Assembly: GCF_000246855.1 (NCBI RefSeq) | Contig: NC_016609.1 | Location: forward strand, 5,716,744 to 5,780,743 | Source of the DNA: Niastella koreensis GR20-10 | Lineage (GTDB): Bacteria; Bacteroidota; Bacteroidia; Chitinophagales; Chitinophagaceae | DNA length: 64,000 bases | Direction: 5' to 3' | Shown here: positions 3,228 through 21,983 of the stretch, one piece after another | How positions within the stretch are numbered: position 1 is the first letter of the stretch | How the letters are laid out: every line of letters begins with the position of its first letter | Position numbers and translations under genes: made by a program | The notes under the pieces: generated by a model | What the model was told of the DNA's origin: nothing | The model's input: the letters and a program-made list of their open reading frames with translations, nothing else | Databases searched by the model: none

Positions 3228-3270
3228 ATATAAAAGAAGTTTGTGTGTTATTAATCCGGCAATCGGCAGT

Positions 3271-3298
3271 CGTGAAACGTTAAACGTGAAACGTGAAA
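3271..3298. repeat. Heptad array, word CGTGAAA x4
   Basis: Four contiguous 7-bp units, three identical (CGTGAAA) and one variant (CGTTAAA), lie in the pntAA-pntAB gap. This belongs to the window-wide family of degenerate heptanucleotide arrays. Confidence 0.85.
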
Positions 3299-3337
3299 GG
3301 GTCTCCGTAGTTCAGGCCTCACTTCTACATGAAACCT

Positions 3338-3414
3338 GTTAACTTGTCAACTTGTTAACCTGTCAACGCTGTCAACCTCCTCGTCAACTGGTTAACTGGT
3401 CAACTGATTAACCC
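3338..3414. repeat. Octad array of GTYAACNN words overlapping the pntAA stop
   Basis: Nine near-tandem units of the form GTTAAC or GTCAAC plus two spacer bases. The period is 8 bp with two longer spacers in the middle. The right end runs into the pntAA coding region and supplies its last residues and stop codon. A second array of the same words lies at 30579-30643. Confidence 0.85.
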
Positions 3415-4507
3415 TATCATTCACCACAGCCCCATTATTCGTAATACAACACCCCTTAACCAGGTCGTCGTCAAAGTTTAAATTGAGTTTACCTTCCTTA
3501 TCGATGATGAGCTGCAAAAAGTTCAACAGGTTTTTACCGTATAACTTACTGGCGTCTGAAGGCATGGTGGCCGCCAGGTTGCTGTTGCCGATAATATGCA
3601 CGCCCTTGTATAAAACGGTTTGATCGTTTTTGGTAACAGGCGTATTACCACCTGTAGCCGCGGCCAGATCGATGATCACCGAGCCTACGCGCATGCTCTG
3701 CAGCATCTCTTCCGTTATTAGGATGGGGGCTTTTTTACCGGGTATTTGCGCCGTGGTAATTACAATATCCGCTTTGGCAATACTTTCTGCAATGCGTTTT
3801 TGTTGCCGTTGCTGGTAATCGCCGGATTGTTCAACCGCATAACCACCGGCTTTTGAGGCATCGGCGGCGCCTTCCACCTCAATGAATTTGGCGCCCAAAC
3901 TCATTACTTCTTCCTTTACTGCAGGGCGGGTATCAAATACTTCCACCACTGCACCTAACCTGCGGGCAGTGGCAATAGCCTGCAAACCGGCCACCCCAGC
4001 GCCCAGTATCAATAACTTTGCAGGCGCAATACTTCCTGCTGCTGTCATAAACATGGGAAAATAACGGCCGTAACTATTGGCGGCCAGCAATACAGCTTTA
4101 TAACCGGCAATATTGGCCTGTGAGCTCAGCACATCCATACTCTGCGCACGGGTGGTACGGGGCAACATATCCAGACTAAACGTGATAAGTCCCTGCTTTG
4201 CCCATTGCTGCATCAACGATGCATTAAACAAAGGCTGATACACCCCGACAATGATCTTTGATGATAAATTCTTTGCTTCTGGAAACGGATGGATGGCTAC
4301 GAGTACGTCGGCTGATTGAATTATTTCCGTTCTGTTTTTTATAGCCGCACCGGCTTTAACGTATTCCTCGTCGTTATGAAAGGCTTTTTCTCCTGCGCCC
4401 GGTTCAACATAAATAGTAATGCCTTTTTTGGTAAGGGCTGTTACTGTTTCGGGCAAAAATGAAACGCGGGATTCTTCGGATGGTTCTTTTAAAACTCCAA
4501 TCGTCAT
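3392..4507 (-). CDS. pntAA: NAD(P) transhydrogenase subunit alpha part 1 (NAD-binding)
   Basis: A soluble 371-residue domain I protein of the alanine dehydrogenase/PntA family. The ATG at 4505-4507 is chosen because family members start with an I-G-V-x-K-E strand, and the extra upstream codons show no homology. Visible motifs are the RAQSMDVLSSQANIAGYKAV loop (the mobile RQD loop region), the nucleotide-binding glycine motif LGAGVAGLQAIATARRLGA followed by the D of EVFDTR, and GSVIIDLAAATGGN. It binds NAD(H) and passes hydride to domain III of PntB. It is first in the operon. The extreme C terminus (VNQLTS) is encoded by the octad repeat array, so its end has probably been altered by repeat expansion. 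Confidence 0.95.
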   Translation of the reverse strand: MTIGVLKEPSEESRVSFLPETVTALTKKGITIYVEPGAGEKAFHNDEEYVKAGAAIKNRTEIIQSADVLVAIHPFPEAKNLSSKIIVGVYQPLFNASLMQQWAKQGLITFSLDMLPRTTRAQSMDVLSSQANIAGYKAVLLAANSYGRYFPMFMTAAGSIAPAKLLILGAGVAGLQAIATARRLGAVVEVFDTRPAVKEEVMSLGAKFIEVEGAADASKAGGYAVEQSGDYQQRQQKRIAESIAKADIVITTAQIPGKKAPILITEEMLQSMRVGSVIIDLAAATGGNTPVTKNDQTVLYKGVHIIGNSNLAATMPSDASKLYGKNLLNFLQLIIDKEGKLNLNFDDDLVKGCCITNNGAVVNDRVNQLTS

Positions 4508-4626
4508 AATCAGGTAGTAGTTATGGCATTCAAGGTAAGCAAATTTTAAGTTATGTACACTGCTACGCTGGAAATGACTTTTTATTGTGACTGCAAGAAA
4601 ATTTGAAGATGTGATAATTTGGCCCC

Positions 4627-5424
4627 TCAAAACCTGATGGTAAAATGTTGTTTAACCTTAAAATCATCACGAAAAAACAACAAGCCGATAAAAAACAGGT
4701 CAACAGAAAGCTGCACAGCAGGATGTTCTTTGATGGCAGTCCAGGCCTGCTCCATTTCCTGGCTCCAGTGAATATCATCAAAAATAACCACGCTGGTAGC
4801 ATTCAGGTGTGGTAACAGTTGGTTAAAATACCGTACGGTGGGTTCGTACCGGTGGTTGCCATCTATAAAAACCAGGTCGAGGGGAGAAACTGCATCGAGT
4901 ATGCCGGGCAGGATATCGTCAAAATTGCCCACCACCTGTTGGACGGAAGACAAATGCAGCGATTGAAAATTCCGGCTTGCCTGGGCGGCCACTGCCGCGC
5001 TTCCTTCGGCCGTAATAAGCCGGGCCTTTGGATTGGCCAGCGACATATAGGCGGTTGAAATACCCAGCGAAGTGCCTAACTCCAATATATTCCTGGGTTG
5101 ATAATAATTTACTATGCGAAATAACAACTGCGCCCATTTTTTGCTTTTGGCCGAATGCTGCGCAATAGACGCTATTGTCCGTTGTTTTGTTTTATTAAGG
5201 GTAGAACCAGCGCCGAAGTCTTCCACTTCAATAAGGCTGTTATCCCGGAATAGTTTCTGGCGTAATGCTTCAACCTGGTTGTAAGCATAAAAATTCCGGT
5301 CATCGATCAATACCCGCCGCACAAAATCATAAACAAAAGGCGAATGAATACCATGGCCTTTTCCATTTAATGCGGTAAAGTAATAAGATGAATATTTTTT
5401 TAATAACTGCCAGGGAGAATACAT
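4627..5424 (-). CDS. Class I SAM-dependent methyltransferase
   Basis: A 265-residue protein with a Rossmann methyltransferase core. Motif I is LELGTSLGISTAYMS, followed by ARLITAEGS (acidic end of beta-2) and LDLVFIDGNHRYEPTVRYF, the D-x-N-H block of the O-methyltransferase / Methyltransf_24 group. The N-terminal HGIHSPFVYDFVR segment is typical of a Bacteroidota family whose substrate is unknown. The start at 5422-5424 (MYSPWQLL) is preferred because the upstream codons lie in the heptad repeat. It is followed 119 bp later by pntAA and may use a separate promoter. Cytoplasmic, substrate unknown. Confidence 0.82.
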   Translation of the reverse strand: MYSPWQLLKKYSSYYFTALNGKGHGIHSPFVYDFVRRVLIDDRNFYAYNQVEALRQKLFRDNSLIEVEDFGAGSTLNKTKQRTIASIAQHSAKSKKWAQLLFRIVNYYQPRNILELGTSLGISTAYMSLANPKARLITAEGSAAVAAQASRNFQSLHLSSVQQVVGNFDDILPGILDAVSPLDLVFIDGNHRYEPTVRYFNQLLPHLNATSVVIFDDIHWSQEMEQAWTAIKEHPAVQLSVDLFFIGLLFFRDDFKVKQHFTIRF

Positions 5425-5437
5425 GGCCAAAAATATT

Positions 5438-5516
5438 GAATATCGAATGATGAATGTCGAATTTTGAAATAAAAGCAATTGAATTAACTTCTACAGTCAA
5501 TATTCGACATTCTAAA
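5438..5516. repeat. Paired heptad arrays (GAATNNN and its complement) between folA and the methyltransferase gene
   Basis: Units of GAATNNN run at a strict 7-bp period from 5438 to 5465. A second array in the opposite sense (TTCNNNA) runs from 5489 to 5516. The two face each other across a 23-bp spacer, so an imperfect long stem is possible. Related words recur at 6030-6064, 6174-6201 and 14233-14267. Confidence 0.85.
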
Positions 5517-5519
5517 TTT

Positions 5520-6020
5520 TTATTTCCCGTCCTTTCTTTCCCACACCTGAAAGCTATACGCGTAGGCGTGTTTTTCATCGGCAGTGAAATCGAGTTGTGA
5601 AAGCAGGTTCCAATCGGCAAAGTTTATTGCGGGGAAGTAGGCATCAGCATCGATAGTAGTATGAACGCGGGTTAAATAAATGCGTTGGGTGAGCGGCAGG
5701 GTTTGTTTGTAAATTTCTCCACCGCCAATAATAAAGGCTTCTTTGGCATCGGTACTGGCAGCAACCGTCATGGCGCCCTTCAGGTCATTTACCACAAATG
5801 CCCCCTGGGGTTGCCAGTCTTTCTGATGGGTGATAACGATGTTGGTTCTCCCGGCCAGCGGCTTGCCCAGTGATTCAAAAGTTTTTCTTCCCATAATCAC
5901 CGGCATGCCCCAGGTGGTATTTTTAAAAAACTTGGTATCGTTCGGCAACGACCACAGTAACTGGTTGTTCTTCCCTATTGCGTTATTATCGGCCGCTGCG
6001 ACCACCTGGCTTAAAATCAT
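5520..6020 (-). CDS. folA: Dihydrofolate reductase
   Basis: A 166-residue type I DHFR. It begins with the conserved strand and Met20-type loop (VVAAADNNAIGKNNQLLW), followed by the active-site acid and helix (SLPNDTKFFKNTT), the NADPH-binding MGRKTFESLGKPL, and GGGEIYKQTL. It reduces dihydrofolate to tetrahydrofolate with NADPH in the cytoplasm, regenerating the cofactor oxidised by thymidylate synthase. thyA lies directly upstream (ends 6205) in the same orientation, the usual thyA-folA order. Here the two are separated by 184 bp of mostly heptad repeats, so co-transcription is likely but not certain. Confidence 0.96.
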   Translation of the reverse strand: MILSQVVAAADNNAIGKNNQLLWSLPNDTKFFKNTTWGMPVIMGRKTFESLGKPLAGRTNIVITHQKDWQPQGAFVVNDLKGAMTVAASTDAKEAFIIGGGEIYKQTLPLTQRIYLTRVHTTIDADAYFPAINFADWNLLSQLDFTADEKHAYAYSFQVWERKDGK

Positions 6021-6029
6021 ATAAATGTT

Positions 6030-6201
6030 GAATATTGAATGTTGAATAATGAATATCGAAGTTCATTTCTTAATAAGACTATTTGCTTTTGCAGTTAATG
6101 ATGAGAAATTTTAATATTAAATCTCACATTCGTATTCCCCATCATTTTGGTACTAAATGTTGTTTGTATTCACTTCTACATTCAACATTCGATATTCGAT
6201 A
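6030..6201. repeat. Two facing heptad arrays in the thyA-folA gap
   Basis: GAATNNN units run from 6030 to 6064, and complementary TTCNNNA units run from 6174 to 6201 (TTCTACA, TTCAACA, then TTCGATA twice). They enclose a 109-bp A/T-rich spacer with no open frame. The arrangement copies that on the other side of folA (5438-5516), so the gene is bracketed by two such pairs. Confidence 0.85.
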
Positions 6202-6204
6202 TTT

Positions 6205-7041
6205 TTAAACCGCCACCGGCGCCTTAATAGCCGGATGACTCTGATAATTCTGCAACGTAAAATCTTCAAACTTGAAATCAAATATATTCTTCACAGCCGG
6301 ATTCAATTGCATAGTGGGCAACGGAAACGGCGTGCGGGTTAACTGCAGATCCACCTGCTCCATATGGTTGCTGTAAATATGTACATCGCCAAACGTATGA
6401 ATGAACTCACCCGGTTCCAGGTCACAAACCTGGGCAATCATAAGCGTTAATAAAGCATAAGAAGCGATATTGAAGGGAACACCCAAAAACACATCGGCCG
6501 ACCGCTGATACAGCTGGCACGACAACCTTGGTTTGGGCCTCCCCCCGGCCTCCCCGACTTGTCGGGGGGGAGGAGTTACATAAAATTGAAAGAGTACATG
6601 ACAGGGCATCAATGCCATATTGGGCAGATCGGCCACATTCCACGCGCTTACAATGAGGCGGCGGCTGTCGGGATTGGTTTTTATCTGGCGGATCACGTCC
6701 GTGATCTGGTCAATGGTTTGGGCGCCCTCGCCTGCCGACCAGCTGCGCCACTGCTTGCCATAAACCGGTCCTAATTCGCCCTGCTCATTGGCCCATTCGT
6801 CCCAAATGCTCACCCCGTTCTCTTTCAGGTATTTGATATTGGTTTCCCCTTTCAGGAACCACAACAATTCGTGAATAATGCTTTTAAGATGCAATTTCTT
6901 GGTAGTAACCAGCGGAAAGCCCTCCTGCAGATCAAAACGCATCTGGTATCCAAAACAACTGGTTGTGCCCGTACCGGTACGGTCTGATTTATAAACTCCG
7001 GTTTCCTTGATATGCTTTAAAAGTGCCAGGTATTGCTCCAT
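6205..7041 (-). CDS. thyA: Thymidylate synthase with an in-frame insertion
   Basis: This 278-residue ThyA converts dUMP and methylene-tetrahydrofolate to dTMP and dihydrofolate. The ATG at 7039-7041 gives the family start [11 protein letters not shown]. The upstream codons are repeat DNA. Visible motifs are [19 protein letters not shown], the catalytic segment NMALMPCH with nucleophile Cys147 (E. coli Cys146), [20 protein letters not shown], and [12 protein letters not shown]. Between FQFYV and LSCQLYQRS most family members have about four residues (ADGK-like). Here there are about 17 (residues 156-172, P/G/R-rich) encoded by a G/C-rich palindromic element. The insertion is in the loop before the nucleotide-binding strand, and all key residues remain, so the enzyme is probably active. 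Confidence 0.93.
6526..6576. repeat. Palindromic G/C-rich mini-element inserted inside thyA
   Basis: The core is an inverted repeat, CCCCGAC at 6552-6558 and GTCGGGG at 6561-6567, extended imperfectly by CCT/AGG. It is flanked by further C and G runs and lies in otherwise normal-composition thyA coding DNA. Similar C/G-rich hairpins occur between genes at 37804-37850 and 44650-44694. It keeps the reading frame and has no stop codon in the thyA frame. Confidence 0.7.
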
Positions 7042-7130
7042 GGGGTGCAAGTTACGAAAACAGTGCGTGTTATGGGTGAAGCAAGGTGTCGTGGGGAGAA
7101 GCTGTGGATTGGAGAGGGACAGTCGTAAAC

Positions 7131-7158
7131 CGGCAAACGGCAGAAGGCAGACGGCAAA
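7131..7158. repeat. Heptad array, word CGGCAAA/CGGCAGA x4
   Basis: Four contiguous 7-bp units (two CGGCAAA, one CGGCAGA, one AGGCAGA) lie upstream of thyA. They have the same form as the other heptad arrays but an unrelated word. Confidence 0.85.
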
Positions 7159-7224
7159 CATGAAAAAACCCGGGCGCTCGGGCTCGGGTCTAAAAATATA
7201 AGCAATTAGCTCGGGTTAAATTGT

Positions 7225-7301
7225 CAGCAACCGGTAATTAGTAACCAGCAATCACTAATCGGATTTATTGTCTGTTGACCATTGGTTATTGCCAATTGGC
7301 T
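7225..7301. repeat. Degenerate heptad array downstream of the coiled-coil gene
   Basis: Units such as CAGCAAC, CAGCAAT and CACTAAT (7225-7259) continue in phase into ATTGTCT, ATTGGTT and ATTGCCA units (7267-7301), ending at the stop codon of the gene at 7302. Eleven units keep the 7-bp register. Confidence 0.7.
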
Positions 7302-8846
7302 TTAATGCTGTCCCGCCAAATTAAATCCATTTCCGTTAACCGTATGGCCGTTGCTGCCATTGGTTCCATTTACTTTAATACCGTTTTGCTGTGAAGCCGG
7401 CGGATTGCTCAATGATTTTGACAGATCGCCATAGATCTTCGACAACAATTGATTATTAGTGATCAATTTGCCTTCGAGGTCTTTTGTTTTTTGCTGTTCG
7501 CGGTGTAGCGATTCCTGCAGGGAAGTGATCATATTCTGCTTGTCATCCAGCACCAGTTGCAATACTGCCTGTTGCTGTTGTACTTCGTGCAGGTTACGCT
7601 CCAGGTTCTCGATATGACCGGTTTTTGACCGCAGGCTTTCCTGGTGCTGACGGTTCTCTTCCCGGCTGCGTTCAACCGCTTGCTGCCAGGCAGAAATCTC
7701 TTCACGCTGCTGGTGCAATTCCTCCTTCATAGCATGGATCTCGCGCTCAAAATTCTCCTTCTGGGTTTGCGTTTGCTGCACCTGCACTGTTTTATCGGCA
7801 GCGTCTTTTTCTACTTCGCGGAAGGTTTTAATACGCTGCTCCAGCTGGTTTTGCAGGAATTCTATCTGCAGTTTCTTTTCCTGCAATACATCCTGCAAAT
7901 AAGTTTGATCGTTGATCCTGGTCTTTAACGAATTCTTTTCTTCTTCGGCCTGCGTAAGCAGGCTCTGTAATTCTTTTATCTGTTGTTCGTAACCGCCATG
8001 TTTTTGTTCGCCGCTGGTTTGCACTTTTTGCTGCAGCACCACATTCTCATCTTTCAACTGCTGAATGGTCTTCTGCAATTGCTGTAATTGCATCGACAGA
8101 TCAGCCTTTTCGCTCTTGTACTGTACACCCAGTTCATCTACCTGTTTGGCAAAATAACGCTGTAATTCCTCTGATTCTGTTTGGGCCGACTTTGATGAAT
8201 ATTCCATGTTCTTCATCAGGTTTTCCAAACGGGTAACCTCGGCAGCACTCTTTTCGCGCATTTCCTGTTGGGCACGCAGTTTATCCTGCAACTGCCTAAC
8301 CGATTCCTGTAACTGCAACACCTGTTGCTGGCTTAACGCCAATGCCTCGGGGATCTGTTGCTCTCCTTCTATCAACCTGGCATTGTTCTGGGCATTCTCC
8401 AATGCCTGTTGCAGTTGGGTTACCTTCAATTTATAACCGTTAATCTCCAGTTGCAAACGGGAGTTGGAATCGTCATTCTGCTTTTCGGTGCTGTAAGCTT
8501 TATTAAGAAGATCGGAGTATTTTCCTTCCAGTTCGCGAAAGTCTTGTTCCAGTGTCGCATAGTTCTCACGGTACCGGCGTACTTCCTGCTCGTATTTTTT
8601 AATAAGAGGCTGATTGTCGGGATTGGTGCCGCTGGCCAGCCAATCGGGCACCTGGCCCCCGCCGCCATTGGGATCGGCTGCTGCTACGGTATGAAAGCCG
8701 CTGCCTTCCATATAAGCAGGTTCGGCTCCTTCTGCAGCTTGTTTTTTACGTTTATAATGAAAGAATGTAGTAACCAGGAATGCGATTACAGTCCCCGGAA
8801 TTGCGATCCATAGTACGATTTGCAGAAACTGCTTTAACTCGTACAT
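7302..8846 (-). CDS. Membrane-anchored long coiled-coil protein
   Basis: About 514 residues from the ATG at 8844-8846. An earlier ATG at 8868-8870 is possible. One membrane helix lies near the N terminus (QIVLWIAIPGTVIAFLVTTF), followed by a basic stop-transfer segment (HYKRKKQ). Then comes a low-complexity linker and about 370 residues of Gln/Glu/Lys/Leu heptads predicted to be a continuous coiled coil. The C-terminal tail is Asn/Gly-rich (VNGTNGSNGHTVNGNG). The orientation suggests a cytoplasmic rod tethered to the inner membrane. The sequence has the make-up of structural or septation proteins, but I recognise no family. Monocistronic, function unknown. Confidence 0.75.
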   Translation of the reverse strand: MYELKQFLQIVLWIAIPGTVIAFLVTTFFHYKRKKQAAEGAEPAYMEGSGFHTVAAADPNGGGGQVPDWLASGTNPDNQPLIKKYEQEVRRYRENYATLEQDFRELEGKYSDLLNKAYSTEKQNDDSNSRLQLEINGYKLKVTQLQQALENAQNNARLIEGEQQIPEALALSQQQVLQLQESVRQLQDKLRAQQEMREKSAAEVTRLENLMKNMEYSSKSAQTESEELQRYFAKQVDELGVQYKSEKADLSMQLQQLQKTIQQLKDENVVLQQKVQTSGEQKHGGYEQQIKELQSLLTQAEEEKNSLKTRINDQTYLQDVLQEKKLQIEFLQNQLEQRIKTFREVEKDAADKTVQVQQTQTQKENFEREIHAMKEELHQQREEISAWQQAVERSREENRQHQESLRSKTGHIENLERNLHEVQQQQAVLQLVLDDKQNMITSLQESLHREQQKTKDLEGKLITNNQLLSKIYGDLSKSLSNPPASQQNGIKVNGTNGSNGHTVNGNGFNLAGQH

Positions 8847-8870
8847 GGAAACGAGCAGGTATCCCAACAT

Positions 8871-9292
8871 AAAATACAATTTTAGGTACACGTTAAGCTT
8901 TCGAAACGACAAGTTGGTTTCAGAGGGACGGTTGGATTAAATATTGGTACTACGGTGTGGGGGTATTGGTAAGGGGCTGGTTACTTCTTGATCCTACTCA
9001 TACAAAACTTACTTAATACATTCTTTATTGTGCATCGGGAAAATAAATCTGGCCTGGTATTTTATGAACAGAGCGTAATCAGCAAGTGTTTCAAGGCTCA
9101 ATAATAATACCAATTTAAGGTTAAAACAAGCTTCTGCAGCCTGTTTTTTCCACATTAAAGCAATGAAAAAATACGGTTGCAGCTTTATACATACTACCTT
9201 TAACATATATGTTTTTAGCTTCAGGTATAACAAAATTTTAAGAATTCGTAGGGGTACCGTTATTTTCAGTTGTCTCTTTTGATAAAACTTTA
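8871..9292. other. Intergenic region between divergent coiled-coil and sigma-factor genes
   Basis: About 420 bp of A/T-rich DNA must contain the promoters for both directions. I see no convincing gene, hairpin or tandem repeat. Open frames on the minus strand across 9009-9302 have no recognisable protein character. Confidence 0.5.
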
Positions 9293-9910
9293 TTGGAAGC
9301 AATTATATTTGGAGCGGATTATCAACGCATTAAAGTGGCCATCCCAAATACTACTACCATTAAGCCGCTGTCGGTTGACAGCGAGAAGGAATTTGAACAA
9401 CTTTTTAAAGAACACTTTAAAAGCTTGTATGCCTATGCTTTCACTATACTGAAGAATGAAGCCATTGCCGAGGAAACTGTTCAAAATGTCTTTTACAAAA
9501 TATGGGAGAAGAAGGTGCCTGAGAATATTCAAACCTCACTCAAAGCCTATTTGTACAAAGCCGTTTATCACGAAAGCCTGAATTATCTGAAACACCAGAA
9601 AATAAAGGCCCGGTATCAAGTGCATGTTATGCATCAAACAAATCAACATAACGACCAGGGCGCATCCAGGAAAATACTGGTGAAGGAGCTGGAAGAAAAA
9701 TTACGTGATGCCATGAATGCCCTTCCCCAGCAATGCCGCACCATTTTTCAGTTAAGCCGGTTTGAAGGACTTAAGTACCAGGAAATTGCCGATCAATTAG
9801 GGATCTCGGTAAAAACCGTTGAGAACCAGATGGGCAAGGCCCTGAAACAGCTGCGGGTTAAACTGATCGATTATTTACCAATATTCTTATTGGCATTATT
9901 ATATATGTAA
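9293..9910 (+). CDS. ECF-type RNA polymerase sigma-70 factor
   Basis: About 205 residues. Sigma region 2 is FEQLFKEHFKSLYAYAFTIL with EETVQNVFYKIWEKK. Region 4 is a helix-turn-helix, MNALPQQCRTIFQLSRFEGL then YQEIADQLGISVKTVENQMG. The hydrophobic C-terminal tail (LPIFLLALLYM) is usual in Bacteroidota sigma factors of this class. There is no ATG in frame at the start, so a TTG at 9293 or the GTG at 9335 must be used. It directs transcription of target genes when released by the FecR protein encoded 52 bp downstream. The pair with the STN protein suggests cell-surface signalling, and the cassette is probably its own target. Confidence 0.92.
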   Translation: MEAIIFGADYQRIKVAIPNTTTIKPLSVDSEKEFEQLFKEHFKSLYAYAFTILKNEAIAEETVQNVFYKIWEKKVPENIQTSLKAYLYKAVYHESLNYLKHQKIKARYQVHVMHQTNQHNDQGASRKILVKELEEKLRDAMNALPQQCRTIFQLSRFEGLKYQEIADQLGISVKTVENQMGKALKQLRVKLIDYLPIFLLALLYM

Positions 9911-9962
9911 CACATATGTCAACCAATTAAAATTACCCTTATTGAAAAGCTATACACAACAT

Positions 9963-10931: not shown

Positions 10932-10953
10932 CCTGCGTGCAGAAAAAACAACC

Positions 10954-12987: not shown

Positions 12988-13058
12988 AGATCACGAATTT
13001 TCCTTGCTAACATAGGGGAACAACTTCGTTGAGTTGTCATACTGCAAATTAAATTTCT

Positions 13059-14183: not shown

Positions 14184-14232
14184 ATTAAAAATGAGGAAGG
14201 AAGAATTAGAAAGGAAAATGCAGTTGATTGAC

Positions 14233-14364
14233 TTCAATATTCAACATTGGACATTCTAAATTCGATATTTCTTTCTTCCCCTTTCATTTCTCTGTTTTTC
14301 ATTTTTCATTCTTCATTTCTTGGCCCTTTGCCCTTTGCCCTTTCACCACTGCCTACTGCCTTTT
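14233..14364. repeat. Successive heptad arrays with different words
   Basis: TTCNNNA units run from 14233 to 14267 in exact 7-bp register. A T-rich stretch with TTTTCAT units follows. Then GCCCTTT occurs three times at 14323-14343, continuing into CACCACT, GCCTACT and GCCTTTT at 14344-14364. Thus at least two unrelated words follow each other in one 130-bp spacer between the repeat protein and the TonB receptor remnant. Confidence 0.85.
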
Positions 14365-14422
14365 TTCTAATTAACCATAGGGGTTCGTTCTTCACCAATT
14401 GTCACAGTGCAAAGTAACAATC

Positions 14423-15654
14423 ATGATCAACACCAAAATAATCACCTTGCTTATGGCAGGTATGTTATACTATTTAACAGGCTTTGCGCAACTGGCGCAA
14501 AACATCAGGGGCACTGTTACGGATCAACTGTTGCAAACACCTATTGCCGGCGCAACAGTGGTTATTACGGGTACCGATAAAAAAGTGGTAGCTGATTCAT
14601 TGGGTAATTTCAGAATACCCAATGTAGCTGCAGGCACTTACACCCTGTTGATTACCTGCATCAATTACGCCGATGCAGTTGCCAGCAATATAGTAGTGAA
14701 TACCGGCAAGGAGGTAGTGTTGACCATTACGATGGAAACAAAGGTAAGAACCGAAAAAGAAGTTGTAATAACCGCCAACAGTAAAAAGAACCGGCCGCTC
14801 AATGACATGAGTGTGGTTAGCGCCCGCGCCTTCACAGTAGAGGAAACACAGAAGTATGCGGCAGCGGTAAATGATCCCTTACGCATGGTTACCGGGTTTG
14901 CCGGCGTGGCCAGTGCTGATGATGGGGGTAACGATATTGCGATAAGAGGAAACGCCACTACCGGTTTATTATGGCGCATGGAAGGCGTTGATATTCCCAA
15001 CCCCAATCACTTTAGCGAAGCAGGCGGCAGTGGCGGTGGTATTTCTATCCTAAGTTCTCAAACCCTGGCTAATAGTGATTTTTTAACCGGCGCCTTCGCC
15101 GCTGAATATGGCAATGCATTAAGCGGCGTATTTGATCTGAAACTCAGAAAGGGCAATAACGAAAAAAACGAGTACGCGCTGCAGGCAGGTTTTCTGGGTT
15201 TGAATGCAGCAGCAGAAGGTCCATTGGCGCATAAGGGTTCTTACCTGGTTAACTACCGGTACTCTACCCTGTCGCTATTAAACAAAATGGGGCTCGATCT
15301 GTCGCAGGGCACAACCAATTTCCAGGACCTTTCATATAACATTTATCTCCCCACAAAAAATAAAGGAATTTTTACGGTATTTGGTTTTGGCGGATTGAGT
15401 TCCGACAACCAAAAGATCGAAACCGATAGTTCTAAATGGGAAATGCAGGATGACCGGTACGCCGGTAAGTTCATCGCGAATACTGGCGCTACCGGCATCA
15501 CGCATACTATCCCCATCGACAATCAAACTACCCTGAAATCGGCGCTAGCATATTCCTATACGGCCAATTCCTATAACGAGAAATATGTGGAGAGCAGCAA
15601 GAGCAATACCAGAACGGGATGATCCCGGTGTTGAACTATAAAGTAGAATGGTAA
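14423..15654 (+). pseudogene. TonB-dependent receptor with its middle deleted and frame lost
   Basis: The ATG at 14423 starts a signal peptide (ending GFAQ), a CarboxypepD_reg-like domain (IRGTVTDQLLQTPIAGATVV onward), and a TonB plug (NDIAIRGNATTGLLWRMEG, VDIPNPNHF, SGVFDLKLRKG). The barrel then begins and stops at a TGA at 15620-15622 after about 400 residues, half the normal 800-900. Directly at that point another frame (15619-15654) reads MIPVLNYKVEW and a stop. This is the expected last strand of such a receptor, with an aromatic C-terminal residue. I infer an out-of-frame deletion joining the first few barrel strands to the last one. It could not form a complete barrel. Confidence 0.75.
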
Positions 15655-15689
15655 TCGCATAACAATTATTTATCATAAATATTACAACC

Positions 15690-16406
15690 ATGAAAAATTT
15701 CCATTTAGCACTCTGTGCGACCTTATTATTCATCGTTTCCACCTCGTGTAAAAAGATCACCGGTAAAGGACCGGTAGTAGTAGAAAGCAGGCAAACAGCC
15801 ACCTACGATGCTTTGAACCTGAACATCCCGGCCAACCTTTATTTTAAACAGGATTCTGGTTTTAAGCTGGAATTACAGGCCCAGGAAAACATCCTGGAAG
15901 AAATCGAAACCGTGGTTATCAATAACGAGCTGCAGGTGCGTTTTCGCCACGAGATCACCAAGGTGCGCAGCAGCGAAGGCATTACGGTATTGGTAAACGG
16001 ACCCAACGTACGGTCTTTTAAGGTAAGTGGCTCAGGTTACCTTGAAATAACAGACCCCATAACGCCTGCCAATTTGGTTTTACAGGTAAATGGCTCCGGC
16101 AACCTCAAGGTTAACAATGTAAATACATCTGAAGTAAATGCCAGTGTAGACGGTTCGGGCCAGATAACCGTTAGCAGCGGCAATGCCAATACGAACAATC
16201 TGAGTGTGAGCGGAAGCGGGTTAATAAATGCATTGGACTTACAGGTAAAAGATGCCCGCGCCAATATTAAGGGTTCGGGTAACATCAACCTGTTTGCCAC
16301 CCAAAGCCTGGATGCAACCATTTCAGGCAGCGGTGATGTTTTGTATAAAGGCTCACCAGCAGTTACTACCCATATTTCAGGTTCAGGATCTGTAAGACAT
16401 CAGTAA
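15690..16406 (+). CDS. DUF2807 (head GIN domain) lipoprotein
   Basis: 238 residues. A lipoprotein signal with lipobox TSCKK (Cys about residue 20) indicates anchoring in a membrane. The body is a right-handed beta-helix rich in G-S-G turns (FKVSGSGYLEITD, LQVNGSGNLKVNN, ASVDGSGQITV, LSVSGSGLINALDL, ATISGSGDVLYKG), which is the signature of DUF2807. Such proteins sit in the cell envelope of Bacteroidota and often follow regulatory or surface gene sets. Their role is not known. It follows the receptor remnant by 36 bp in the same direction. Confidence 0.88.
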   Translation: MKNFHLALCATLLFIVSTSCKKITGKGPVVVESRQTATYDALNLNIPANLYFKQDSGFKLELQAQENILEEIETVVINNELQVRFRHEITKVRSSEGITVLVNGPNVRSFKVSGSGYLEITDPITPANLVLQVNGSGNLKVNNVNTSEVNASVDGSGQITVSSGNANTNNLSVSGSGLINALDLQVKDARANIKGSGNINLFATQSLDATISGSGDVLYKGSPAVTTHISGSGSVRHQ

Positions 16407-16645
16407 TGGCAGAAGAATTATACTTATAAGAATAATTATAACACAAAATACCAGTTAACAAAAAGATAATGCAGACTTAATATTACAGAGGGAACAAGCA
16501 GTTACATGATTGACATTTATCAAAAAACTGCTCGTTTTTTCCACAATACACAATTAATAATCCACACCGCATTTCCCGTATAGTGAACAGGTATATTTTT
16601 GGCGGGAGTTTCCTAATAATTTCTTAACCCGCTAATTGCCGCATT

Positions 16646-17139
16646 ATGAAATGGGTGTATGTTAACCAGCCTTCTGTTTATATTAGAAAATATCAACTGA
16701 CAGAAGGCGACAATACAAAACTGGTAATAAAGTATAATCTGGACCAACAATCAGTACGTATTAGCAGCGAAGAGAACCACCGGCTTTTTTTATCGACAAA
16801 ACAGGATTATGGCACAACAGGACTATTCTGAAAAATGAATATGGCGTCGAGATCGGCAGACTGGCTATTGACAAGGTTCACGGTACCGGGATCATAGAAA
16901 TTGAAGGAAAAAAATACTACTACACGTTGCAGAACAATTCGCAACTGGTGGTATTTGAGCATACGGTAACCATGCCGTTGGCTGTATGTGACATGGTAGA
17001 AGCTCCTTCCTTTGCTTCACTGTCGGCCAACAAGTACAGCAACGAAGAATATGCCTGCTTTCTGCTGGGCGTTTGCTGGTACCTGTTTCCGCTTACTGCA
17101 GCTGAACAACCGGAATTTGCCGTAGCCAGCGTAGCGTAA
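16646..17139 (+). pseudogene. Hypothetical protein split by a one-base shift at a T7 run
   Basis: The frame from ATG 16646 (MKWVYVNQPSVYIRKYQL) runs into a seven-T tract at 16785-16791 and then ends at 16831. Adding one T would continue it as ...HRLFFIDKTGLWHNRTIL and on to a TAA at 17137-17139, giving 164 residues. The downstream part is clearly coding, with an even amino-acid mix and no stops for about 345 nt. The total length of 494 nt is one short of a multiple of three. The predicted product is beta-rich with no domain I recognise. The shift could be a real mutation, a slippage-controlled gene, or a homopolymer sequencing error. The 239 bp before it show nothing clear. Confidence 0.72.
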
Positions 17140-17168
17140 TAATTTGCAATCGCCTCCTTTACATTATA

Positions 17169-17207
17169 AGAGGATGCATCCTCCGCCTGGCGGATGCATC
17201 CTCTTTT
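17169..17207 (+). terminator. Rho-independent terminator after the split gene
   Basis: A 13-bp perfect inverted repeat (AGAGGATGCATCC at 17169-17181, complement at 17192-17204) is followed by TTTTT on the plus strand. It lies between convergent genes, 30 bp past the plus-strand stop and 34 bp from the stop of the pectate lyase. Confidence 0.88.
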
Positions 17208-17240
17208 TATTTGCATACCCCGCTAAAACCGGCTTATAGA

Positions 17241-19220
17241 TCAGTGTACGAACGTATTCTGCAGAACCGTTTTTGAATTGCCGTTATGTATGAATATAAA
17301 ATAAACACCTTTTTGTAAGCCGGTATAATCTACAGGTATATTATAGGTACCGGGCGCATAGGTTTTATTGGTCAGTGTTTTTATTAACCGCCCATCAGTT
17401 GCATACAGGTTCACTTTCACTTTTTCAATTGTAGTAACCCCAAAACGGAGTGTCGACAACCCGGTTGTTGGATTAGGCAGCACCATTGGTTTAACTTCAG
17501 CCGGGTTAACACCCGTAACAAGTGTTTCCATTCTTGCACCGGTAGCAGCGCTGCAGGAAGCCTCGGTTGGATTATTTCCGGAAATTTCTATCCAGTCGAT
17601 GTTGGCAAACTCCGCTGCAGTTGTTGTTTCCAGCCTGATCTTGTTTGCACCGGCCACTAATGTAACCGGAATTTGCGCAGTAGTGGTCCAGGTGCTCCAG
17701 GTGGCTGTTTTAGGGAAGGACACCGCCCCATTCACCAGTACCCCATTTACCAATACCCTTGCCGTTGTAGCGCTTTGTGAGCCGGCATTGGCATAACGCC
17801 AAACCAGGTTATACGTACCAGCCGCTCCGGCACTTACTGCCCAGGTAATTCCCTGTCCGCTCGAATTGCTCAGGTTTATATAATAACCGCCATCTGCCCC
17901 GGTATAAGTATTTTGCCTGGAACCATTGGCGCTGCAATAACCGGTACCTGTACCTGATTTATCATCGATGCGTAAAGTAGTGCCCGTGCCTCCGCCACCG
18001 CCAGTGGTGGTGAAGTTGGCAGTAACACTGGTGTTTGCATTCATGGTAACAGTGGTGGTAGTATTGGTACCACTTGCGCCATCGCTCCAACCGGTAAATG
18101 TATAACCCGATGCAGGCGTAGCAGTCAATGTAACAACGGTGCCCGGTGCATAAGTACTGGCGTTCGGGCTGCGGCTAACTGAACCACCCGCAGCGGGATT
18201 GGCCGATGTGGTTAACACAAAGGAACTGCTGGTGCCGCAACCACATTGGGTGGGCGAAGGCAACGTAGCCCCTGCCCCGCAGGTGGCGTTACTTACCAAA
18301 GCTTTTACATTGGCTGCCGGGGCTATATTCATGGAATAAGCAGGCGTAAAAGAAGTACCACTGCCAGCCGTGTTACCGGTGGTATTGTTATACACGTTAT
18401 TGCGGGAGGTTACCGCGGTGAAATTATTTTCGTACAGATCGATGGGTGTATTTACGCCATCAAAATAATTACTCTCTACCAGGATATCGGCTTCTATTCC
18501 GGCACGAACACAATAATTGTTTCCGGGGCTATCGAACAAATTATTCACTACATGCACCTGACCAAAACGTACGCGGGGCATGCGTTCAATCACTCCTGTG
18601 GTCCACCAGTTGTATACCATGGTTACTTTCAACCGGCCGCGGTCAGATGTTTTGCTGTCTGAGCTTCCTATTAAATTGCAAAACTGGTGATTCTGGGAAG
18701 CAGAAGTGTAATGGAATTTCGTCCAGGAAACGGTAATGTAACTGGCGCCATTGGAGATGTCTAAATTACCGTCCTGACCGTCATAAATATCGCAATGATC
18801 TATCCAGATATTGGTGGCAGCAGCATCCTGGATGGTGATGCAATCCACGCCATCCACATCCACCGAACCAGGCCCCTGTACGATCATATTTCTTATGATT
18901 ACATTGCTTGCCTTGATATCGAAACCACCATACAACTTAGCGCCGGGTAAACCAATGATGGTGGTATTGGCAGCTACTTTTACCCGGGTACTAACGCCAG
19001 CCCCCATGGTGCCGCTTACATAAATAACTCTTGAGCCTGATCCATTGGCCTGGGAAGTAAGATCACTGATATTGGATACAGTTACAGGTGTTGCATTACC
19101 ACCACCCGTTGTACCGCCGTTTTGTGTACACCAGCCTACAGGTGCGCATTGGTCCTGTGCATACGACAACGAAAAAAAAGTCATCAGCACGCACAGCAGG
19201 AAAAATATTCTGCTTTTCAT
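17241..19220 (-). CDS. Secreted pectate lyase (PL1 type) with repeat domain, carbohydrate-binding-like module and T9SS tail
   Basis: 659 residues. A signal peptide (ending LSYAQ) is followed by a parallel beta-helix lyase domain to about residue 320. It shows WIDHCDI, DGNLDI and ITVSWTKF (Ca2+ site strands) and the catalytic block ERMPRVRFGQVHVVNNLF, whose arginines abstract the proton in polygalacturonate beta-elimination. Next is a divergent InlB-type repeat (GGSVSRSPNASTYAPG to SVTANF). A beta-sandwich of CBM6/35 character follows (RIDDKSGTGTGYCSANGS to ANIDWIEISG). Last is a type IX secretion sorting domain (VLPNPTTGLSTLRF to the end). It should be released or attached at the cell surface to cut pectin. 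It is paired with a PL9-type lyase 77 bp upstream, and together they form a pectin-degrading unit without a SusCD pair here. Confidence 0.92.
   Translation of the reverse strand: MKSRIFFLLCVLMTFFSLSYAQDQCAPVGWCTQNGGTTGGGNATPVTVSNISDLTSQANGSGSRVIYVSGTMGAGVSTRVKVAANTTIIGLPGAKLYGGFDIKASNVIIRNMIVQGPGSVDVDGVDCITIQDAAATNIWIDHCDIYDGQDGNLDISNGASYITVSWTKFHYTSASQNHQFCNLIGSSDSKTSDRGRLKVTMVYNWWTTGVIERMPRVRFGQVHVVNNLFDSPGNNYCVRAGIEADILVESNYFDGVNTPIDLYENNFTAVTSRNNVYNNTTGNTAGSGTSFTPAYSMNIAPAANVKALVSNATCGAGATLPSPTQCGCGTSSSFVLTTSANPAAGGSVSRSPNASTYAPGTVVTLTATPASGYTFTGWSDGASGTNTTTTVTMNANTSVTANFTTTGGGGGTGTTLRIDDKSGTGTGYCSANGSRQNTYTGADGGYYINLSNSSGQGITWAVSAGAAGTYNLVWRYANAGSQSATTARVLVNGVLVNGAVSFPKTATWSTWTTTAQIPVTLVAGANKIRLETTTAAEFANIDWIEISGNNPTEASCSAATGARMETLVTGVNPAEVKPMVLPNPTTGLSTLRFGVTTIEKVKVNLYATDGRLIKTLTNKTYAPGTYNIPVDYTGLQKGVYFIFIHNGNSKTVLQNTFVH
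17529..18000 (-). repeat. Module shared with the neighbouring lyase gene (direct repeat of 19586-20045)
   Basis: The DNA for the carbohydrate-binding-like module is almost identical in the two adjacent lyase genes. Long stretches agree base for base (for example 17761-17820 against 19821-19880) and the differences are mostly third-position. The lyase domains and T9SS tails on either side are much less alike, so the similarity is limited to the module and the linked InlB-like repeat. Confidence 0.85.
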
Positions 19221-19252
19221 AATAGTTGTTTTTGATTAATGAGGAATAAGGA

Positions 19253-19287
19253 AGGGCCGCCTTCCGCCGTGGCGGAAAAACGGCCCT
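19253..19287 (-). terminator. Hairpin between the two lyase genes
   Basis: A two-tier inverted repeat has an outer arm AGGGCCG/CGGCCCT (19253-19259, 19281-19287) and an inner arm TTCCGCC/GGCGGAA (19262-19268, 19271-19277). It lies just beyond the stop codon of the upstream minus-strand lyase. There is no good T run, so it may act as a pause, processing or repeat element rather than a strong terminator. Confidence 0.55.
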
Positions 19288-19297
19288 GGTGGTTGTT

Positions 19298-21739
19298 TTA
19301 TCTGGTCAGGATATTTTGCAGTAGTTTTTGTTTACCATTAAGGTTTATTGATATAAAGTAAACGCCTTTCTGCAAGCCTTTATAGTCAACAGGAACGGCA
19401 TGAGTACCTGCTGCGAACGTTTGATTGGTCAGGATTGACACCAGCCTGCCATCTGATGCAAACAGGTTTATGATCACTTTCTGCTGACTGCCCAGCGTAA
19501 ACCGCACTGTTGACAACCCGGTTGTTGGGTTAGGCACAACAATGGGCGCTCCTTCTACCATGGTAGTGGTTTCGCTCTCTGTTGCCATTCTTGCACCGGT
19601 GGCAGCACTGCAGGAGGCTTCGGTTGGGTTATTCCCGGTAATTTCCATCCAGTCGATATTGGCAAATTCAGAAGAAGCAGTTGTTTCCAACCTTATCTTG
19701 TTTGCACCGGCAACCAGGGTAACCGGAATGGCAGCCGTGGTGGTCCAGGTGCTCCAGGTTGCTGTTTTAGGGAAGGACACCGCCCCATTTACCTGTACCC
19801 CATTTACCAATACCCTCGCCGTTGTAGCGCTTTGTGAGCCGGCATTGGCATAACGCCAAACCAGGTTATACGTACCAGCTGCTCCGGCGCTCACCGCCCA
19901 GGTAATACCCTGTCCGCTCGAATTGCTCAGGTTTATATAATAGCCGCCATCGGCCCCGGTGTACGTATTTTGCCTGGAACCATTGGCGCTGCAATAACCG
20001 GTACCCGTACCTGATTTATCATCGATGCGCAAGGTAGTGACCGTGCCACCACCGCTGGTAGTAAAGTTGGCAGTTACACTGGTGTTCCCATTCATCGTAA
20101 CTGTTGTAGTGGCGTTGGCACCACTGGCGCCGCCGCTCCAACTACTGAATACATAACCCGATGCCGGGGTAGCAGTTAATGTAACCACAGTACCGGCCGC
20201 ATAAGAAGTTGCATTCGGACTGAGGGTTATGCTGCCGCCTGCCGAAGGGCTCACTGTAGTAGTTAAGGCATACGTGGCGCCGGTGCTATTGGTGAAGTTG
20301 GCGGTAACCGTTTTAGCTGCGTTCATGGTTACAGTTACCGAAGCGGAAGAACCGGTAGCATCACCGCTCCAGCCGGTAAAGGTATAGCCACTGCTGGGAG
20401 TAGCCGTAAGCGTAACAACCGTACCGGATGCATAAGTAGTGGCGTTCGGACTGCGGTTAACTGTTCCACCGGCTGCAGGTGAGATATTGGTGGTAAGAGA
20501 ATAAGAGGTAGATGTATTGCCGGATTCAATAGCGCCCAGGTCTGGCGCGCTGCCGTTGTAGGTAATACCGGTAGAGGTAACACCCGCGTTTATAAGATCG
20601 CTGCCTGCCGCTAAATTTAAAAACCCGTTTGAGGTTGGGTTAGCAGCAGGACCAGGCGTTAAGGTTACAAAATCGGCTGCTGTTACGGTAAAACCACCCG
20701 CAGCTCCCTGAAATGAGTTTGGTGCTGTGGCCGTACCAATAATGCGATCATTTGAACCACTCTGGAACGACAGGTTATTTTTAAATACACTGGTGCCGCC
20801 ATCGAAATTGAAATTGCGTTCAGGGTTATTGTATGAAGTGCAATTGGTAACCTCAATGCTACCCAGGTTCCTGTTGTAAGTAAACCCGTGCTGACCATTG
20901 TTAAAAGCAGTACATCTTCTTACAATATGGTTCACTGAAATATCTTCGCCACCCAGTTTAAAACCATTCTTATCACCATTGCCCGATGTAGTGCCATCAG
21001 TAAGGATCCCATTGTCGTGAGAAATACAGCCGTCAAGCGTTACGGCGCCGATGGGCCCGGTATCAGGTTTTGTGTAAAGGTCCCAGCCATCGTCGATATT
21101 ATTATGTGAAACACAATTGCGAAAAACGTTTCCGGCGCCGCAGGTCAATTTGGCGGCAAAACCATCTGCATCTTCATTGTCCGGGTCCTTATTGTCGTAC
21201 GACTCACAATTAAGGATCAGGTTATTACTGGGCCATTGTGCAATGGTGGTATAATTGGTGTTATACCGGCTTAGCTGCAAACCCGTATCGGCATTCTTTC
21301 TGAAAATACAGCTTTCAATGGTGTTGTTATCACCAGAAAGCAGCATGCCATTGTCACCGGCGCTTTCGATGATCAGGCCTTTTAAATGCCAGTAGCTGCC
21401 ATCCAGGATAATTCCGCGGTTGGATGAGGAAACAGCCATTCCGGCAAAACTAATTACCGGTACTTCACTCCCATAAGCAAAAATGTTTTTAGGTGCAGAT
21501 ACAGTGCCGCTGTTCGATTCTGCAATCAATACGGTGGCGGTTAAATTATACGTACCACCCCGCATATAAATAGTGCTGCCTGCTATAACAGTAGCAATCG
21601 CATTAGCCAGGGTAGTTGGCGCTGAAATGGAAGTGCCCGGATTGGATGCACTTCCCGTAGGAGAAACGTACAGATCCTGGGCATGGGTACCCACATAAAC
21701 TAAGAATAAAGAAGATAATAGCAATAGCATTTTTTTCAT
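19298..21739 (-). CDS. Secreted pectate lyase (PL9 type) with two InlB-like repeats, binding module and T9SS tail
   Basis: 813 residues from the ATG at 21737-21739, which gives a proper signal peptide (MKKMLLLLSSLFLVYVGTHA). The parallel beta-helix (residues 20-400) carries the PL9 calcium and catalytic region: SYDNKDPDNEDADGFAAK and then NNIDDGWDLYTK. In family 9 the aspartates bind Ca2+ and a lysine acts as base. Two InlB-type repeats follow (each starting near S/PxAGGxxxxSPN), then the module shared with the gene at 17241-19220, then a T9SS sorting domain (VPNPTTGLSTVRF to LQNILTR). It should degrade polygalacturonate outside the cell. The start upstream of the signal peptide was rejected because it adds a non-secretory prefix. 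Confidence 0.92.
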   Translation of the reverse strand: MKKMLLLLSSLFLVYVGTHAQDLYVSPTGSASNPGTSISAPTTLANAIATVIAGSTIYMRGGTYNLTATVLIAESNSGTVSAPKNIFAYGSEVPVISFAGMAVSSSNRGIILDGSYWHLKGLIIESAGDNGMLLSGDNNTIESCIFRKNADTGLQLSRYNTNYTTIAQWPSNNLILNCESYDNKDPDNEDADGFAAKLTCGAGNVFRNCVSHNNIDDGWDLYTKPDTGPIGAVTLDGCISHDNGILTDGTTSGNGDKNGFKLGGEDISVNHIVRRCTAFNNGQHGFTYNRNLGSIEVTNCTSYNNPERNFNFDGGTSVFKNNLSFQSGSNDRIIGTATAPNSFQGAAGGFTVTAADFVTLTPGPAANPTSNGFLNLAAGSDLINAGVTSTGITYNGSAPDLGAIESGNTSTSYSLTTNISPAAGGTVNRSPNATTYASGTVVTLTATPSSGYTFTGWSGDATGSSASVTVTMNAAKTVTANFTNSTGATYALTTTVSPSAGGSITLSPNATSYAAGTVVTLTATPASGYVFSSWSGGASGANATTTVTMNGNTSVTANFTTSGGGTVTTLRIDDKSGTGTGYCSANGSRQNTYTGADGGYYINLSNSSGQGITWAVSAGAAGTYNLVWRYANAGSQSATTARVLVNGVQVNGAVSFPKTATWSTWTTTAAIPVTLVAGANKIRLETTASSEFANIDWMEITGNNPTEASCSAATGARMATESETTTMVEGAPIVVPNPTTGLSTVRFTLGSQQKVIINLFASDGRLVSILTNQTFAAGTHAVPVDYKGLQKGVYFISINLNGKQKLLQNILTR
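19586..20045 (-). repeat. Module shared with the neighbouring lyase gene (second copy)
   Basis: Partner of the segment at 17529-18000, in the same orientation and about 2.05 kb away. The near identity of the pair points to recent duplication or gene conversion. It could support a deletion fusing the two genes. Confidence 0.85.
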
Positions 21740-21773
21740 AAAACAAGCTTTAATTAAAGAATAAATATGCCGA

Positions 21774-21829
21774 ACGCTGAACACTAAACGCTCAACGCTG
21801 AAAGCCGAAGGCTGAAGGCTAAACGCAGC
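21774..21829. repeat. Heptad array, words ACGCTGA/AGGCTGA
   Basis: Eight contiguous 7-bp units in strict register, such as ACGCTGA (three near-copies), ACACTAA, AGGCTGA and AGGCTAA. They lie upstream of the PL9 gene, possibly within its promoter or leader. Confidence 0.85.
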
Positions 21830-21907
21830 TTTCCCCAGTGCCTTTTGCTATTAAGCATGAGGCATGCAGAAGACAAAACACTCAAAGCTAAATGCACCAT
21901 CCTGGGC

Positions 21908-21983
21908 GCATTACGCGTTAAGCATTACGCGTTAAGCGTTACGCATTAAACGTTACGCATTAAGCGTTGCGCGTTAAACATTA
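21908..21983. repeat. Heptad array, word GCRTTAM, ten units
   Basis: The cleanest array in the window. Ten contiguous 7-bp units read GCATTAC, GCGTTAA, GCGTTAC, ACGTTAC or GCGTTGC without a register break, followed by a partial unit. It has no coding potential and no stable hairpin. Confidence 0.9.

Follow-up and report, generated by a model that had tools for sequence, protein, structure and literature searches.

Short-period intergenic arrays of Niastella koreensis as probable arms of dispersed palindromic elements

Introduction

In cyanobacteria, short tandemly repeated repetitive (STRR) sequences consist of tandem heptanucleotides, and one genome carries several different words. Here, we describe arrays of comparable form in Niastella koreensis GR20-10 (Bacteroidota), both in a stretch of 64,000 nucleotides of contig NC_016609.1 (positions 5,716,744 to 5,780,743; hereafter the window) and in further parts of this genome and its relatives. 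The Niastella arrays share this tandem heptad form and multiplicity of words with the STRRs, although we know of no arm order, cores, or dispersed palindromic elements for STRRs. The Niastella arrays fall into shared word families, occur in dispersed copies with conserved cores, keep a fixed arm order, and are depleted in gaps between divergent genes. They probably represent arms of small palindromic elements that are dispersed in intergenic DNA, do not code for protein, form one superfamily, and resemble repetitive extragenic palindromic (REP) sequences or miniature inverted-repeat transposable elements (MITEs).

The nearest published case that we found is that of the GGGAATC heptads of Xanthomonas, followed by the TAACTGA repeats and the BrickBuilt MITE. 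In Xanthomonas (GGGAATC) and Nostoc (GGGGA(C/T)T), intergenic heptads combine conserved and variable unit positions, and many of those of Xanthomonas lie in convergent inverted pairs (70 and 75 cases), with the G-strand inward; prominent heptamer repeats also differ between related species (PMC4692102). The arm order of the Xanthomonas convergent pairs agrees with that of the Niastella elements. However, Xanthomonas and Nostoc have one word of the G-quadruplex type (PMC4692102), whereas Niastella has 14 profile families, periods of 7, 8, 9, and 11, words without G-tracts (e.g., GAATRTY), and cores that are conserved between copies.

TAACTGA direct repeats are intergenic in Beggiatoaceae, cyanobacteria, and five Bacteroidetes, and are sometimes mixed with other heptamers; they represent a single word, are mostly placed directly before start codons in the main species, and, within the accessible part of the report, form no inverted elements with conserved cores (PMC4679880), unlike the Niastella arrays. 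REP sequences and bacterial interspersed mosaic elements (BIMEs) are short intergenic palindromes, often dimers of set orientation, and CGTC repeats of this kind are also present in Bacteroidetes (PMC3733652); the Niastella elements are likewise short intergenic palindromes, but their stems are periodic degenerate arrays. In Porphyromonas gingivalis, also of the Bacteroidota, BrickBuilt is a small intergenic mobile-like element with tandem repeats; these are 23-nt repeats inside the element and belong to one family (PMC4596501), whereas in Niastella 7–9-nt repeats form the inverted arms. For Bacteroidota, polar heptad elements with multiple words were not found described in the accessible parts of the open-licence literature, which is a weak negative. 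The arm-order rule makes the old question of over-represented heptamers in bacterial intergenic DNA testable.

Periodic arrays in intergenic DNA

Periodicity was scanned by scoring runs of s[i] = s[i+L] at each lag L, with 10 order-1 resamples as the control for the window. Eight segments were obtained in the window at lag 7 (3257–3298, 5432–5468, 6024–6060, 6174–6203, 7128–7159, 14233–14361, 21769–21826, and 21907–21975) and three at lag 8, compared with a mean of 0.0 in the resamples at either lag. A preliminary description of the window had reported non-coding arrays with a fixed 7-bp period. The sites that it listed are real by the lag-7 scan, except that 7225–7301 stays under the threshold; two of them, 5438–5516 and 6030–6201, which had been taken for contiguous arrays, are instead each composed of two inverted arms around a spacer, and period-8 arrays at 3333–3412 and 30579–30642 had been overlooked.

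The genome sample, made up of the window and 80 stretches of 20 kb each, comprised 1.664 Mb, or 18% of the genome. Segments at lags 5, 6, 7, 8, 9, 10, 11, and 12 numbered 1, 3, 194, 102, 36, 0, 18, and 9, respectively, in a series that has no resample and takes in arrays in coding DNA too. When the first 800 kb was compared with one resample, the counts were 91 vs 0 at lag 7, 41 vs 2 at lag 8, 14 vs 0 at lag 9, 8 vs 0 at lag 11, and 3 vs 1 at lag 12. Lags 7, 8, 9, and 11 are raised and lags 5, 6, and 10 are not, so that the excess at lag 7 expected from the preliminary description is present, but the period is not confined to 7 bp.

Genes were taken from our own calls of the longest open reading frames (ORFs) of at least 90 codons (100 for the comparison of orthologous gaps), and distances to start codons are uncertain for this reason. 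In 864 kb, 84% of array bases are free of ORFs, compared with 11% of all DNA, in agreement with the earlier remark that the arrays avoid genes. Arrays that are more than half ORF-free account for 151 of 194 at lag 7, 92 of 102 at lag 8, 22 of 36 at lag 9, and 15 of 18 at lag 11; glycine-codon-like repeats are present among the lag-9 arrays. Lag-defined arrays total 15,151 bp in the 1.664 Mb (about 1%) and family-profile arrays 25,863 bp, and at least one profile-matched array is found in 243 of the 829 called intergenic gaps. Tandem 7-nt units thus occur in intergenic DNA above chance, as in heptanucleotide STRRs and heptamer simple sequence repeats, and the formal likeness to cyanobacterial heptamer repeats that had been pointed out holds, likewise for the Xanthomonas heptamers.

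Shared word families

Words were clustered greedily by unit profile, over all rotations and both strands, and clusters of at least three arrays were considered. Eleven clusters hold 183 of the 194 lag-7 arrays and three clusters hold 97 of the 102 lag-8 arrays, whereas after permutation of the unit columns (three repeats) the 11 largest clusters hold 98–111 and the three largest lag-8 clusters 29–33. Because permuted words also cluster (171–177 of 194 remain in clusters of at least three), the proportion of arrays that cluster carries no information; what is informative is that so few clusters hold most of them. Additionally, one 20-mer pattern has 84 matches at up to 3 mismatches, compared with 1 for the reversed pattern. 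The clustering with its permuted-word control and the 20-mer search rule out the earlier proposal that the words are unrelated between loci. A period-9 family, GTTGAYANN, also recurs.

Period-11 arrays lie at L128:15623-15721, L204:18679-18780, and L190:16046-16155, and some form inverted pairs with unrelated words, e.g., CAGGGACCTTA. Going from the gene towards the centre, modules of different words are sometimes arranged in a preferred succession (e.g., L024, L030, and L200), namely GTTGATAGAG, then GAATATT...GAAGTG, then GGTTAAAGCC; GTTNCA stands before GTTNNTNA in 9 cases to 1.

Inverted arms and dispersed copies with conserved cores

An inverted partner (score of at least 14, within 150 bp) was found for 70 of 143 lag-7/8 arrays, compared with 12 of 143 when the flanks of another array were used, and 46 inverted-arm elements were listed. 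While the arrays had been said to lack stable hairpins, paired arms fold as RNA at a mean z of −3.35 relative to shuffles in 57 elements, which are those of at most 220 bp among the first 60 of 99 paired elements. Terminal inverted repeats, as expected of MITEs, are present and are complementary at the family level only. Across 114 spacers, AATACA occurs 22 times vs 1.5 in shuffled sequence and TGTATT 27 times vs 2.4.

BLAST among the 243 array-bearing gaps yielded 564 high-scoring segment pairs (HSPs) of at least 34 bp, and several of the best 45 of these 564 cover arm, spacer, and arm. Three elements compared with the genome have at least 60, at least 42, and at least 46 matches, many of them to arms only; these counts are lower bounds because 40 first-look candidates were scored for each, out of 132, 274, and 252. 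Copies of elements, core included, recur at 74–93% identity.

Two elements, A and B, were aligned over 15 copies and 13 distinct copies, respectively, queries included; the coverage filter retained 15 of 30 loci for element A and 16 rows (13 distinct) of 30 loci for element B, and core B was then reduced to 10 distinct copies. Over these 10 copies, core B has a mean column identity of 89%, and its predicted fold consists of two hairpins. In the arms of element B, three of the eight octad positions reach 0.91–1.00 and two stay at 0.40–0.43. The consensus of core B, the sole core examined, lacks the GTAG or CGTC tag of REP sequences and REP-associated tyrosine transposases (RAYTs; PMC3733652). 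Elements A and B are non-coding, within the size range of MITEs (about 70–300 bp), and dispersed in copies with a common interior, as MITEs are.

The window element at 3257–3412 recurs elsewhere in the genome, at G000:C1:668567, in a copy that covers the spacer and is 89% identical over 96 bp; two further copies have 78–79% over 94–95 bp, and a 90-bp HSP with L172 is the same place as G000:C1:668567. The possibility that spacers are unique to each locus is ruled out by the conserved cores in HSPs, genome matches, and alignments. Rfam at the gathering score gave 0 matches in the window, L228, L258, and L288.

Arm order and placement by genes

A profile scan returned 714 arrays in 14 families, with profiles built on the same genome as was scanned. 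Neighbouring inverted arrays of the same family follow the majority arm order of their family in 97 of 99 pairs. The first arm is G-richer in 78 of these pairs, C-richer in 16, and equal in 5, and this recount (16 of 99 last, 5 equal) rules out a strict rule by which the G-richer arm always comes first. Over all arrays, the first-arm strand holds 6,525 G vs 3,730 C. Adjacent arrays in gaps are arranged +− in 134 cases, ++ in 48, −− in 52, and −+ in 6; when they belong to unrelated superfamilies, pairs that were unused in orienting the families, the arrangement is +− in 43 and −+ in 4. By the plain G-vs-C sign of lag arrays, the ratio of +− to −+ is 37:1 in N. koreensis, 4:1 in other Niastella, 19:0 in L033–L110 from other genera (the 19 pairs being from 12 loci, with 6 pairs from Pinibacter), and 2:0 in the G010–G034 stretches. 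Control intergenic inverted repeats without arrays have no bias (91:98 and 72:81), whereas inverted repeats in arrays do (40:10 and 15:1). An order rule that runs across unrelated families and several genera and is missing from ordinary inverted repeats points sharply to a common process.

Of the arrays that lie no more than 10 bp from an ORF end, 181 of 198 are directed away from the gene, compared with 16 of 31 at more than 120 bp; ORF ends inside arrays could bias this count, but not the pair counts. Single arrays point inward by 47 to 13 when nearer a stop codon and by 13 to 10 when nearer a start codon. Because the order holds for words without G-tracts, it is unlikely to be caused in general by quadruplex formation. 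Stop-codon or AA/TT content, considered by eye only, was rejected as a cause, being inconsistent between families.

Gaps with a +− pair comprise 36 of 135 convergent, 85 of 531 codirectional, and 8 of 163 divergent gaps (Fisher p = 1.3e-7 for convergent vs divergent and 1.2e-4 for codirectional vs divergent). This distribution is the pattern of elements that are tolerated or used at 3′ ends.

Range in relatives

The survey of relatives covered one locus of up to about 21 kb each. Lag-7 arrays are found in Pinibacter, Terrimonas, Chitinophaga, Flaviaesturariibacter, Aquirufa, and a Spirosoma metagenome-assembled genome, among others, and the class is kept in relatives, as the preliminary description had supposed; none was found in five Sphingobacterium/Olivibacter loci (L069, L086, L089, L097, and L084). 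One word family, as a pattern, is also present in other genera; some relatives have it in many copies and others hardly at all. This search is weak, since several genomes also have many matches to the reversed control.

Words vary along single arrays and between species at one site. In the gap 3228–3407, for instance, N. koreensis has CGTGAAA and an octad, N. yeongjuensis CTCACAA, G004 CTTCTGC and CGGCAAA, and G002 AGCTGTA. Among 366 species-pair comparisons of orthologous gaps in the window region, both species have arrays in 43, and 26 of these 43 have no common family, which bears out the claim that one gap may carry different words in different species.

An IS200-like (Y1_Tnp) transposase gene, considered as a candidate driver of the elements, is represented by one strong match in each of the 9 searched genus genomes (10 in the set); of 8 genus loci, 7 have lag-detected arrays next to this gene, but neighbouring gaps hold arrays too. 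The genomes of L069, L086, L089, L097, and L084, whose loci are array-free, have no Y1_Tnp match, while L070, L045, L039, and L042 have a match but no intergenic arrays in about 20 kb. The gene lies at L318:3442-3870 and in the loci L319–L325, with a similar ORF layout in these eight loci, most of which have an AATCGTG/AATGGTC-type inverted element beside the gene. The Niastella Y1_Tnp gene is perhaps domesticated.

Proposed mechanism and alternatives

We consider it probable that the arrays are arms of REP- or MITE-like elements. In this reading, an element measures about 70–200 bp and has a core or spacer between a 5′ arm and, in inverted orientation, a 3′ arm. The 5′ arm usually has 4–5 tandem units of 7, 8, or 9 nt and is usually the G-richer one; the core or spacer is conserved in the aligned families and has a predicted fold in one of them, and every family is characterised by a unit in which some positions are fixed while others vary freely. 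The elements may spread as short palindromes, probably via a single-stranded hairpin intermediate, and would be retained chiefly behind genes, at 3′ ends, in positions where transcription and folding are to be expected. Since a periodic stem could pair in several registers, units could be shuffled, gained, and lost by recombination or slippage while the stem is kept, and such a multi-register stem would preserve the period even as words drift and replace one another.

Several results weigh against this interpretation. The partner arm of the same element ranks at 0.485 ± 0.031 among same-family partners (n = 96), so that own arms are without the special complementarity that a strictly selected hairpin would require; because own partners rank no better than others, arms are matched by family and not base by base, and hairpin covariation between arms is ruled out by this mean rank. 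Many arrays are solo arms or unmatched chains and not complete elements, and exceptions to the G-richer-first order amount to 16 of 94 pairs and 10 of 50 array-borne inverted repeats. In degenerate columns, 9 of 13 families have neighbouring units that are closer to each other than to those of other arrays (0.43/0.36 to 0.62/0.35), as slippage would produce. Elements A and B are the only ones aligned with cores, covariation in core B is thin (both-sided change in 2 of 19 pairs), and the window element 3257–3412 has few long copies. Neither a target-site duplication nor a clean filled-empty pair was found in the inspected orthologous gaps. A full-length Y1_Tnp has no match in 12 of 30 relatives (30 genomes chosen with the array counts of one locus each in view), and six of these 12 (L043, L034, L062, L105, L107, and L035) do have lag-7 arrays. 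Finally, two 5′ arms (5432–5468 and 6024–6074) are 86–96% identical between N. koreensis and G002/G005, and this conservation by start codons hints at selection on those two arms.

A broader version, which we regard as doubtful, is that the arrays constitute an undescribed and widespread class of Bacteroidota elements, with 7–9-nt words, fixed and free positions, and one order rule across unrelated families and genera, by which one strand, usually the G-richer, faces into the gap, and that a single machinery, which reads or writes single strands with this polarity and is neither a RAYT nor a known transposase, builds or moves them all.

It is unlikely that the arrays are instead ladders of candidate sites, with a separate DNA- or RNA-binding protein for each family that would read the fixed positions. 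Near-invariant and randomised columns do stand side by side within units (in the larger families, some columns have about 0.1–0.5 bit of entropy and others 1.6–1.9), the arm order is fixed, and the two start-codon-side arms are conserved, all of which such ladders would explain. The 5′ arm at 5432–5468 is 96% identical in G002 and 91% in G005, and the two 5′ arms by the folA gaps show 91–96% and 84–92% among N. koreensis, G002, and G005. Between N. koreensis and G002/G005, DNA identity is 75–78% for folA and the methyltransferase gene and 83–84% for thyA, and the arm by the folA stop codon (5489–5518) has 72–82% (82% in G002, 73% in G005). The arms placed by start codons therefore exceed folA coding DNA in conservation and the stop-codon arm does not, in a comparison that covers two gaps, with arms picked by eye. 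However, 14 profile families of common architecture would need many proteins, and families are often replaced at orthologous sites.

We consider it quite unlikely that, as the preliminary description proposed, heptads are actively produced at each locus separately, by slippage or a 7-nt copying step, out of any sequence present. The strong lag-7 excess and the 26 of 43 orthologous comparisons without a common family would fit such a process, and so would long near-perfect runs, of which there are few overall, such as that of about 30 near-identical units at L133:11809-12084. The closer neighbouring units in nine families (e.g., 0.55 vs 0.37) may reflect subfamilies or slippage, but in the other four of the 13 neighbours are no closer (0.29/0.32, 0.40/0.42, 0.45/0.44, and 0.32/0.42). 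Given the L133 run and the nine families, slippage or subfamily structure may contribute, without explaining the whole class. A new word made at each site is contradicted by families that recur at many loci: few word clusters, far fewer than after permutation, hold nearly all arrays, and one word family extends to other genera. Dispersed copies with conserved cores, a polarity that crosses unrelated families, and own arms that are no closer than the arms of other elements also oppose it.

Selection at the transcript level is very unlikely. Under this explanation, which draws on the known site preferences of Rho, the arrays would be 3′-end stem-loops whose G-richer-first order keeps Rho off an exposed C-rich arm; the depletion of pairs in divergent gaps and the stable folding would agree with it, as would the single arrays of codirectional gaps, of which 34 vs 16 lie in the 5′-arm sense. 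Yet the order holds for unrelated neighbours without a common word (43:4), and other intergenic inverted repeats are unbiased (91:98). It is extremely improbable that both 3′ ends at intergenic breaks were extended with word arrays and then rejoined, with like strands facing the junction. The gap-centred polarity, largely independent of gene direction, and the mutual independence of arms would suit such directed end synthesis, but conserved cores and full-length dispersed copies are unexpected, single arrays nearer a start codon are barely polar (13 to 10), and no enzyme or template was found.

Elements and other repeats of the window

The element at 3257–3412 starts with a 5′ arm on the + strand (3257–3298; CGTGAAA/CGGCAAT words, 4–5 units, lag-7 score 21, period 7 in Tandem Repeats Finder), followed by a core or spacer (3299–3332) that lies between arms of different families and is conserved with the arms in a genomic copy, and by a 3′ arm of the period-8 GTTRAC family on the − strand (3333–3412; lag-8 segments 3333–3367 and 3380–3412). 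The next arms belong to the GAATRTY family. A 5′ arm (5432–5468, +, lag-7) adjoins the likely start codon of a methyltransferase-like gene, for which ATG 5422–5424 is our choice while the ORF list begins the gene at 5478, and the 3′ arm (5489–5518, −) adjoins the folA stop codon. In the following gap, a 5′ arm with inner end GAAGT (6024–6060, +, lag-7) adjoins the folA start codon and a 3′ arm with inner end CACTTC (6174–6203, −, lag-7) the thyA stop codon. The array neighbours include folA (DHFR_1) and thyA. The thymidylate synthase of the window shares 95% identity with its counterpart in Niastella yeongjuensis and 93% with the one in N. vici.

The thyA coding region contains a G+C-rich palindrome, CCTCCCCGACTTGTCGGGG... 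(6536–6580), and similar CCCGACTTGTCGGG palindromes occur in intergenic gaps elsewhere; that of thyA may be an in-frame REP-like insertion.

Further along the window, a 5′ arm of CGGCARA words (7128–7159, +, lag-7) is followed by a terminator-like hairpin at about 7164–7195, seen by eye, and a degenerate stretch of CAATRGG-like units (7225–7301), under the lag-7 threshold, is one family-profile array. A 5′ arm of the AATGAAR family (14184–14230, +), from the profile scan, precedes a chain of 3′ arms on the − strand (14233–14361; GAATRTY, AATGAAR, and GGGCAAA/GGCAGTA; lag-7 score 36). A 5′ arm of ACGCTGA/AGGCTGA words (21769–21826, +, lag-7 score 27) is paired with a 3′ arm of GCRTTAM words (21907–21983, −, lag-7 score 26, lags 14/21/28), which represent the same superfamily inverted. 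A palindromic array of the period-8 GTTRAC family (30579–30642, lag-8 score 24) lies between convergent genes.

A long inverted repeat on GACCTGTCAGGT occurs at 33227–33310, and GACCTGTCAGGT-like sequences are repeated in the G004 gap orthologous to 30547–30640; these are perhaps another dispersed palindrome family. Two tandem arrays with a 21-bp period lie between ORFs at 43325–43497. Furthermore, matching 9-bp and 15-bp repeats are found at corresponding places (17683–17758 and 19739–19815) in two adjacent long ORFs, the second of which combines beta-helix and InlB-like repeat domains with a secretion tail; the two are probably tandem paralogues.

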